From NCBI GenBank assembly GCA_902794155.1, contig CADBGN010000003.1, positions 31,326 to 95,325 on the forward strand: DNA of 64,000 nucleotides, read 5' to 3'. This stretch comes from an uncultured Bacteroidia bacterium (GTDB lineage: Bacteria; Bacteroidota; Bacteroidia; Bacteroidales; F082). The position numbers were made by a program, and so were the translations under genes. How positions within the stretch are numbered: position 1 is the first letter of the stretch; every line of letters starts with the position of its first letter. The notes below the pieces were generated by a model. It was not told the origin of the DNA and ran no database searches. It saw only the letters and a program-made list of their open reading frames with translations. Of this stretch, positions 61,536 through 64,000 are shown one piece after another.

Positions 61536-64000
61536 ATGGATTACAACTTTACCGAAATCGAGAAAAAGTGGCAGCAGTATTGGCGCGACAACAAAATCTA
61601 TAAGGTTGATATTGACCACAGTAAGCCGAAATTCTATGTCTTGGATATGTTCCCGTATCCTTCGGGAGCTGGCTTGCACGTGGGACATCCGCTGGGCTAT
61701 ATCGCCTCGGATATTTATGCAAGATATAAAAGGCTGAAAGGCTTCAATGTGTTGCATCCGATGGGCTACGATGCCTACGGCCTGCCCGCTGAGCAATATG
61801 CCATCCAAACCGGTACACATCCCGCCGTGACGACTGAGAAGAACATCAACCGCTACCGCGAACAGATGGACAAGATCGGTTTCTGCTACGACTGGGATCG
61901 CGAGGTGCGCACCTGCGAGCCAGGCTACTACAAATGGACGCAATGGACTTTCCTTCAACTGTTCAACTCGTTCTACTGCAACGGCTGTCAGAAAGCCCAG
62001 CCCATCAGCAAGCTGATTGCCCGCTTTGAGGAAAAAGGTACCGAAGGCCTTAATGTGGCCGAGAGCAAGCCGCTGAGCTTTACTGCCGAGGAATGGAAAG
62101 CGATGAGCGAGAAGGAGCAACAGGAAGTGCTGATGAACTATCGCTTGGCTTATCAAGCCGAGGCCATGGTGAACTGGTGCCCAGGTTTAGGTACAGTGCT
62201 CGCCAACGACGAGGTGGCCGACGGCCTCTCGGTGCGTGGCGGCTTCCCCGTGGAGCGCAAGTCGATGAAGCAGTGGCAACTTCGCATCACCGCCTACGCC
62301 GACCGTCTGCTTCAAGGCCTCGAAACCGTAGATTGGAGCGAGTCGGTGAAAGACCTGCAGCGCAATTGGATTGGCAAGTCTATGGGTGCTTCGGTGATCT
62401 TCAAGGTGGACGGTAAAGATATCGATTTAGAGGTATTCACCACTCGTGCCGATACTTTGTTTGGTACGACCTTCATGGTGCTGGCTCCTGAACACGAGCT
62501 GGTAAAGGAAATCACTACGCCTGAGCAACGCACCGAGGTGGAGGAATACATCACCCGCACCAAGAACCGTAGCGAACGTGAGCGCATGGCTGAAGTCCGT
62601 AAGGTGAGCGGTGCCTTCACGGGTGCCTACGGCATCAACCCCATCACGGGTGCCAAGTTGCCGATTTGGATTGCTGACTACGTGCTGATGGGTTATGGTA
62701 CGGGTGCCATCATGGCTGTACCAGCCCACGACAGCCGCGACTTCGCCTTTGCCCGTCATTTCAACTTGCCCATCATCCAAGTGGTGAAGAAACCTGGCAC
62801 CGAGGCCACTGATCCTTCCACATGGGAAGAGAGCTTCGATGCCAAGGACGGCGAGCTGGTCAACTCGGGCTTCCTCAACGGCTTGACGGTGAAGAAAGCC
62901 ATCGAGCGTATGATTGAGGAACTGGAGAAACTCGGTGTCGGCACAGGCAAGACCAACTACCGCTTGCGCGATGCCATCTTCAGCCGTCAGCGTTACTGGG
63001 GCGAGCCGTTCCCGATTTACTACAAGGACGGCATGCCTTACGCCATGGACGAATCGAAACTGCCGCTTGAGCTGCCTGCCATCAGCGAATATAAGCCTAC
63101 CGAGACGGGAGAACCGCCTTTGGCCCGCGCCAAGAACTGGGTCACCGAGGAAGGCTATCCCATCGAGACCAACACCATGCCGGGCTTTGCTGGTTCCAGC
63201 GGTTACTATTTCCGCTACGAGGACCCGCACAACGACAAGGAATACTTCAGTCGCGAAGCCAACGACTATTGGCAGAACGTCGACCTCTATATTGGTGGTG
63301 CCGAACACGCCACTGGCCACTTGATTTACAGCCGCTTCTGGTGCAAGTTCTTGTTTGATATTGGTTTGTCATGCAAAGATGAGCCTTTCCAAAGGATGAT
63401 CAACCAGGGTATGATACAAGGCCGTTCCAGTTTTGCCTATCGCGCCAACATGGAGAAGCTCTGCGAATACGGTGTCTGGCGTCTCATCAAGGACAACAAG
63501 TTGGGCGTGAAGTTCGAAAAGGACTTCAAGGATGGCCGCCGTCGTTTCGACTTCTTCTGCCCTGAGAAAGGTATCTTGATTGAGATTAACCGCATGGGTA
63601 ACCTCGAAAAGGTGGCCGAGCCGTGGATGGATTATGCTGCCGAGAAAGGTTACAAGCTGTTACTTGTCCCGATTATCGATGTGGTGAATGACTACAAGAA
63701 CGGCACCGACTTTGTTGAGCAACGTATCAAAGATCTTATCGCAGGAAAGGATGTTCCCGCATTTGTCGAGGGCGAGGCTTACGATGGCACTCCTATCTTC
63801 ATCTCGAAGAATCTGGAAGGCCGTGAGCAGTTCAGCGACCCGATCCATGTGGATATCAACATGGTGCGCAATGACATCCTCGATGTGGAGGCGTTCCGCC
63901 TGTGGCGCGATGACCTGAAAGATGCCCAGTTCATCTTCGAGAAGGACAAGGATGGCAACGATATCTTTGTCTGTGGCAACGAGATCGAGAAGATGTCGAA
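61536..64000 (+). CDS. leuS: leucyl-tRNA synthetase with inserted nuclease-like domain, 3-prime truncated
   Basis: 821 residues are present; the window ends inside the KMSKS motif (...EKMS). The HIGH-type motif is [12 protein letters not shown], after [11 protein letters not shown]. The editing domain has [17 protein letters not shown] and [18 protein letters not shown], with the catalytic Asp. WIGGAEH-like [18 protein letters not shown] is also normal. Between [16 protein letters not shown] and [17 protein letters not shown], which are adjacent in other Bacteroidota LeuRS, lies an extra stretch of about 113 residues (637-749) with DUF559-like sequence. The frame is undisturbed and codon use is like that of the host gene. 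It charges tRNA-Leu; the insert needs explanation. Confidence 0.95.
63444..63782 (+). other. in-frame DUF559/Vsr-like domain insert within leuS
   Basis: Encodes LeuRS residues 637-749. The order [19 protein letters not shown], then [19 protein letters not shown], then [20 protein letters not shown] and [10 protein letters not shown] follows the DUF559 (PD-(D/E)XK) pattern of W.LLR...g.kFrRQ, DF.c....iiE.DG, R...L...Gy.vlr....v, v...I. The acidic Asp and Glu are retained, but the ExDGxxH motif reads EINRMGN. This suggests an intact fold with an altered active site. Confidence 0.68.

Follow-up and report, generated by a model that had tools for sequence, protein, structure and literature searches.

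The window analysed here, the whole stretch of DNA under study, comprises 64,000 nucleotides from an uncultured Bacteroidia bacterium of the Bacteroidales lineage F082 (assembly GCA_902794155.1, contig CADBGN010000003.1, positions 31,326 to 95,325, forward strand). Its leuS gene encodes a leucyl-tRNA synthetase (LeuRS) that is interrupted in frame, ahead of the KMSKS motif, by a domain which profile comparison and structure prediction relate to the DUF559/Vsr-like PD-(D/E)XK nucleases. The leuS frame opens at 61536 on the forward strand and stays open to the end of the window; since this is also the end of the contig, the gene breaks off with KMSKS still incomplete. The frame scores 760.8 bits against TIGR00396 (leuS_bact), above the cut-off of 548.4, and thus qualifies as a bacterial LeuRS. 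We refer to the insertion site of the window copy in leuS as site A. Residue counts at this site come from an alignment of 32 copies (A1), which omits L015 (a near copy of the window gene), L033 and the cut copy L046. The features are listed below.

61536 to 64000, forward strand: leuS, leucyl-tRNA synthetase, truncated within KMSKS where the contig stops
63402 to 63443, forward strand: last conserved catalytic segment (14 residues) ahead of the insert
63444 to 63794, forward strand: inserted domain, predicted to be DUF559/Vsr-like; LeuRS residues 637-753, insert residues 1-117
63465 to 63467, forward strand: insert E8 (LeuRS E644), Glu of the first helix; invariant in 32/32 copies
63549 to 63551, forward strand: insert D36 (LeuRS D672); invariant in 32/32, lost in the remote copies L233 and L234
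63582 to 63584, forward strand: insert E47 (LeuRS E683); invariant in 32/32, Asp in the remote copy L231
63588 to 63590, forward strand: insert N49 (LeuRS N685), where D..ExK has its Lys; 13 copies have Lys, 18 Asn and 1 Arg (n = 32)
63795 to 63989, forward strand: remaining segment up to KMSKS, in the region of the leucine-specific domain

The distance from NQG to KMSKS is 186-196 residues in genes with the insert and usually 78 in those without it (79, 80 or 101 in a few). Relative to insert-less Bacteroidota LeuRS genes, 113-117 residues have been added, and all of these are absent from the insert-less relatives, in line with the original prediction, made from the sequence of the window, that the flanks are nearly contiguous in other Bacteroidota. 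The predicted start at 63444 and the quoted motifs, VEQRIKDLI among them, were likewise found as described, but the predicted end, 63782, is better placed at 63794, where comparison with insert-less genes sets the right edge. When an insert-less relative was aligned with solved bacterial LeuRS, the alignment stopped five residues before the insert point and resumed just before KMSKS, the unaligned stretch presumably being the place of the leucine-specific domain. A figure legend in PMC5059758 presents AgnB2 and Helicobacter LeuRS as lacking this domain. An assembly or frame artefact as the source of the insert was ruled out, because the same insert is shared by 34 of 80 LeuRS loci (the best 80 of 577 confirmed relatives, from named genomes) and L015 differs from the window copy by one residue within it.

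An open reading frame on the reverse strand (60610-61278) adjoins leuS; judged by a motif, its product may resemble ORF6N-type DNA-binding proteins. A tRNA gene scan of the window found tRNA-Phe and tRNA-Lys.

Identity of the inserted domain

PF04480, the Pfam model of DUF559, matches 30 of the 32 aligned site-A copies at E ≤ 0.05, with a best value of 4.1e-7. This model is independent of our alignments, whereas a DUF559 profile that was started from matches to the site-A profile is not fully so. The fold predicted for the insert has an alpha-beta-beta-beta-alpha-beta core and clearly matches solved PD-(D/E)XK / Vsr-like members. Sequence profile and predicted structure both support the original proposal of a DUF559/Vsr-like PD-(D/E)XK domain inside LeuRS, and relate the insert to DUF559 rather than leaving it a segment without such kinship.

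Across A1, in which identity to the window copy falls to 31%, 12 of 117 positions are invariant, E8, D36 and E47 among them. The residue two after E47 is Lys in 13/32 copies, which gives the D..ExK arrangement of an ordinary PD-(D/E)XK site, Asn in 18/32, including the window copy, and Arg in one. The window copy keeps the Asp and Glu of the putative metal site and has Asn in place of Lys. Judged from these residues, several families of the site-A group appear to have an ordinary D..ExK pattern, which looks weakened in the window lineage. The earlier statement that Asp and Glu remain while DGxxH is lost is correct for the window copy, but incomplete elsewhere, given the Lys of these 13 copies.

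An intein was considered and rejected: with the insert alone, Pfam at E values up to 10 returned only DUF559, and no Hint or other self-splicing domain. A sequence search of the PDB with the insert gave only two matches (E 0.78 and 1.5), and no match to the insert alone was found in NCBIfam, nor to the window insert in PADLOC or PHROGs. The DUF559 domain borne by RecJ in L169 showed weak PADLOC matches to DpdF and Hhe (E ~0.001) and matched PHROGs endonuclease families (best E 4.7e-7), and the site-A copies L028 and L039 had weak PHROGs family matches (E 0.0015 to 0.0038). We do not take these matches as indicating a defence role.

Distribution and loss of the insert

Besides the 34 loci with the insert, the 80 LeuRS loci comprise three with scars, 41 that are insert-less and two that end before the site. 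Carriers are some rumen and other Bacteroidales bacteria. In a survey of the order, 22 of 295 genomes matched the insert at E ≤ 1e-12; 21 of these matches are LeuRS with the site-A insert and the other (G802) is a free DUF559 gene, so that the domain is not a standard part of most Bacteroidales LeuRS. Within the family sample, 118 of 173 genomes matched at E ≤ 0.001, a count that includes ordinary DUF559 genes; 95 genomes by table count, 73 of them in the genus of the window, matched at E below 1e-20.

On a LeuRS core tree from which the trait-bearing stretch had been removed, a quick tree with open forks, the distribution requires a minimum of 8 changes if a scar is scored as an insert, or 11 if three states are allowed. 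The site-A copies nevertheless fall all on one side of a branch (support 100/99) in two domain trees, both of which have few columns and midpoint roots. From the rows of the first tree, the second omits four that are free-standing, 25 in-gene ones chosen at random and 19 of the 32 from site A; among the new copies it omits the near copies L215-L217 and the cut copy L232. Since the site-A copies group together despite their patchiness, the pattern points to a single origin followed by many losses, to some exchange, or to both.

Losses were apparent among close relatives. We inspected the 25 listed genomes of the same genus that have no full match, 35 further genomes of the family without a match lying outside this sample. 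Ten gave no LeuRS match, and of the 15 readable LeuRS genes 12 are scarred, two are similar throughout except for a segment that is cleanly insert-less, and one has an insert cut by the contig end. The scars are of at least three kinds, found in seven, four and one genes (n = 12). That scars and clean replacements occur within one genus in an essential enzyme implies that the insert domain is dispensable. An assembly artefact was ruled out for the insert-less gene L025, since L184 and L185 have the same kind of segment.

Exchange and selection on leuS

The L019 gene is a mosaic. At 65% of informative sites in alignment columns 448-844 it is L005-like, compared with 26% outside, and none of 2000 shuffles gave a value as high. 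The tract covers about 400 codons of an otherwise L020-like gene and encloses the insert (columns 615-732). The same scan also gave 0/2000 for L020 (44% versus 23%) and L021 (49% versus 18%), but there the share within the stretch never reaches 50%, and a region that diverges faster would suffice to explain it; we rely on L019 alone, because only there does the majority type switch. Exchange in the losing direction is seen in L025, where an insert-less segment lies in a window-type gene, and likewise in L184 and L185. In some pairs the insert and the core are discordant, L020 and L021 being 94.6% similar in the core and 63% in the insert.

Where it is kept, the insert is under purifying selection. 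The insert has a median dN/dS of 0.10 (dS could be computed for 55 of 78 pairs), compared with 0.09 for the remaining segment up to KMSKS (61/78) and 0.044 for the LeuRS core (78/78), the pairs being drawn from 13 genes and not independent of one another. The insert evolves faster than the core and at roughly the same rate as the remaining segment. This last likeness, together with a site that adjoins a segment variable or absent in some LeuRS, would suit an ordinary lineage-specific expansion of the leucine-specific domain with no nuclease kinship; such an origin is scarcely credible, however, as it is contradicted by the fold and profile evidence and by insert-less relatives that lack all 113-117 residues.

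A tolerated passenger, that is, a once-mobile domain stuck in a permissive loop and kept, with no function of its own, since precise removal is rare, would account for the scar deletions of at least three kinds and the one kind of clean replacement within a single genus, for the altered metal-site residues of L231, L233 and L234, and for an insert that evolves faster than the core. It fits poorly with a dN/dS of about 0.10 and with the presence of three metal-site acids among only 12/117 invariant positions, more than folding alone should demand. We consider this explanation unlikely, if worth keeping in view.

The proportion of synonymous differences (pS) was 0.55-0.74 in stretches holding most of the insert and 0.40-0.67 elsewhere, and ran from 0.52 to 0.79 along the gene in an insert-less control group. 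With only a mild rise over the insert, we claim no recombination hotspot; a synonymous-divergence peak, considered as support for homing, was not borne out. These data bear on a further possibility, namely that the insert is a still-active selfish nuclease which cuts insert-less leuS and spreads by gene conversion, in the manner of an intein endonuclease but without splicing. The L019 tract (65% versus 26%, no shuffle as high), the minimum of 8 presence/absence changes on the core tree, the D..ExK pattern in 13/32 copies and the discord between insert and core in pairs such as L020-L021 are all in keeping with this. Yet there is one clear tract only, and it comes from a mosaic test that is not specific, as L020 and L021 illustrate; synonymous divergence is only mildly raised, exchange in L025, L184 and L185 ran towards loss, Lys is replaced by Asn in the window lineage, and the insert is too short for a second, DNA-binding domain. 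An active selfish nuclease thus seems to us quite improbable, and L019, a single mosaic gene, is only compatible with homing.

DUF559 domains in frame in other Bacteroidota genes

When the insert profile was run against 395 genomes of the phylum, it matched free DUF559 genes and also long frames. The first long frames read had DUF559 between host sequences of essential or large enzymes, an HsdR-like one among them. In-frame hosts with intact motifs comprise LeuRS (two other sites), ValRS, IleRS, MetH, RecG, RecJ, MutS, Acs and IcmF. The other LeuRS sites lie at the entry to the editing domain and ahead of the TMPGWAGSS segment, so that LeuRS is a repeated target, hit at three sites.

The class sample contains PF04480 in 124 of 247 genomes. 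From the best rows of the class search 150 PF04480 matches were taken, and 57 of these listed matches lie in frames of at least 500 residues. We read 40 of the 57, assigning hosts by motif reading: LeuRS (17), MetH (6), RecJ and Acs (3 each), RecG, IcmF, a SpoIIE-type protein and restriction enzymes (2 each), and IleRS, MutS and an N-terminal case (1 each). When NCBIfam was run on 17 frames taken from the 40 and from earlier ones, a host model exceeded its cut-off in 16 (7 LeuRS, 1 ValRS, 8 others), L157 being the sole frame without one. In a phylum sample of 198 genomes, which overlaps the set of 395, the family was present in 108 and, counted by eye, 24 listed rows lie in frames of at least 500 residues; the in-gene form is therefore commoner in the sample of the class than in that of the phylum. 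Copies from different host genes mix in the domain tree, the LeuRS sites recur in separate groups, and the site-A group is homologous to the in-gene DUF559 domains by profile search.

Some individual frames may be recorded here. In both L096 and L121, next to hisA, a DUF559 domain precedes HisF in the same frame (host names by motif reading). In L100 (G486), arrays of NSPLLEGTKGVFSN-like translated units flank the DUF559 domain on both sides within one open frame. The only PF04480 match in the genome of the window (L001, G000:C25), which is over the cut-off, closes an open frame of 375 aa at its C terminus, preceded by an acetyltransferase-like part (motif reading) and a TTPPLKGAGG linker.

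Inverted repeats flank many in-gene copies

In the 12 copies first examined, the DNA flanks of the DUF559 domain can pair with each other, as judged from duplex energies without a control. When inverted repeats were scored by local alignment against single-base shuffles, z exceeded 5 in 15 of 20 in-gene copies, the others being L124, L139, L156, L158 and L170. Repeat-flanked copies occur near the window lineage, in ValRS of G063 from the same genus (z 5.8) and, within the same family, in LeuRS of G028 (z 10.2) and G030 (z 6.6), but not of G008 (z -0.4). Seven genomes of a genus that has copies in RecJ, Acs, RecG and MutS contain one repeat pattern 90 times, and not once when it is reversed; the same pattern is found twice in G275 and is absent from G468, the genome of the window and G063.

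In the genus with these 90 occurrences, RecJ alleles are filled with DUF559 (L198-L200), hold a nuclease-less palindrome pair (L201) or are empty (L202-L204), all of them in frame, and the palindrome pair of L201 (G751) sits where sister species hold the full DUF559 element. On sequence comparison, such repeats and such filled, nuclease-less and empty alleles appear to be the features of a mobile element; neither a movement event nor a defined element end was seen in the genomes compared. For the repeat-flanked elements, splicing or bypass during translation seems unlikely, because the frames, which were selected for length, stay open through the nuclease domain. The LeuRS gene of L123 (G468) has a site-B DUF559 domain and, close to KMSKS, a separate nuclease-less palindromic insert.

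Discussion

We think it probable, without being certain, that the window copy is an old in-frame mobile DUF559-type insertion, now a repeat-less lineage domain that is kept as a likely accessory module. An old insertion, stripped and domesticated, is suggested by the homologous domains, by a host gene that has been hit repeatedly and by the repeat-flanked copies in the same family. A mobile DUF559-type nuclease element would have entered leuS in frame, probably once, in an ancestor within the order, at the start of the leucine-specific segment. Its inverted repeats would then have been lost and the domain inherited as a lineage-specific one, with repeated losses and occasional exchange through local recombination. 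The LeuRS polypeptide would be read straight through the domain, without splicing. The retained domain, under purifying selection, most likely serves as an accessory module that would bind nucleic acid next to the catalytic site; in the window copy the metal-site acids are present and the change from Lys to Asn would have weakened or abolished cleavage. Of the roles first suggested, a selfish or tolerated domain is the best supported, since close relatives have lost the domain and related DUF559 domains occur in frame in many genes.

Several observations weigh against this history. The window insert itself matches PF04480 with E 0.012 and 16 bits, below the curated cut-off of 20.6, and 6/32 copies also match the DpnII-MboI nuclease family weakly (best E 0.0026). 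The DGxxH motif of DUF559 is found in 0/32 site-A copies, which have IEIN or IEIK instead; most in-gene and free DUF559 copies read have E-x-D-G..H at that place. Among remote site-A copies, still in frame within LeuRS, E47 is replaced by Asp in L231, and D36 is missing from L233 and L234, so that catalysis is not needed everywhere. At site A, no inverted repeats were found in the 11 copies tested (highest z 1.3). The site-A branch is long, with few columns and a midpoint root, and long branches may meet; the patchiness could also reflect transfer of the whole leuS gene. Because site A is without repeats and DGxxH, descent from a repeat-flanked element rests on homology and analogy, and a different, non-mobile member of the clan may have been inserted.

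If the domesticated-insertion reading is extended, Bacteroidota might possess a class of protein-embedded mobile elements, with a nuclease between hairpin-forming inverted repeats, open to in-frame reading over their full length, lodged in loops of essential enzymes and spliced out of neither RNA nor protein. We advance this tentatively. The window copy would represent the repeat-less end state, now a synthetase domain, and the D..ExK families might still bind metal and act on nucleic acid, possibly tRNA-Leu or their own gene. Such elements would offer a possible route for new domains into essential proteins, by which an in-frame mobile nuclease is tolerated in a loop and then lost, replaced or kept; because leuS genes of a single genus include ones in which the domain is kept, scarred or replaced, cost, benefit and decay are measurable. 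That nuclease domains are present in various housekeeping enzymes of Bacteroidota needs to be considered in annotation, in the use of phylogenetic markers and in studies of the enzymes themselves. Movement of these elements driven by their own nuclease becomes a testable question.

Comparison with known systems

In the open-access literature, which leaves most subscription papers outside, we found no paper linking DUF559 to LeuRS or to in-frame insertion, nor any account of in-frame elements with a nuclease in essential genes of Bacteroidota. The structure 3hrl (NGO0050) is a solved relative in the DUF559 family PF04480. The window copy differs from that family in falling below the curated cut-off, in having lost RRQH and DGxxH, and in that Asn, or Lys in some other site-A copies, replaces the motif Asp. 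I-Bth0305I is a homing endonuclease grouped with Vsr in the EDxHD class. Compared with Vsr and I-Bth0305I, the LeuRS domain is embedded in frame in an essential protein, with no intron or intein seen.

A passage in PMC12907096 discusses a DUF559 protein as a Vsr-like endonuclease. The RAP domain of FASTKD4, described in part of PMC11879112 as a Vsr-like fold that works on RNA without nuclease activity, is a precedent for exaptation, but it belongs to a mitochondrial protein and is not a synthetase insert. With inteins the Bacteroidota elements share an in-frame, nuclease-bearing insertion in an essential gene, but no self-splicing domain was found in the window insert. The Rickettsia palindromic elements, in the account given in a section of PMC10969869, are in-frame miniature inverted-repeat transposable elements of ~150 bp that lie in unrelated genes and are translated within the host protein. 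Like these, the Bacteroidota elements are palindromic and lie in frame in unrelated genes; unlike them, they include a nuclease domain, and the copy at site A is now devoid of repeats.
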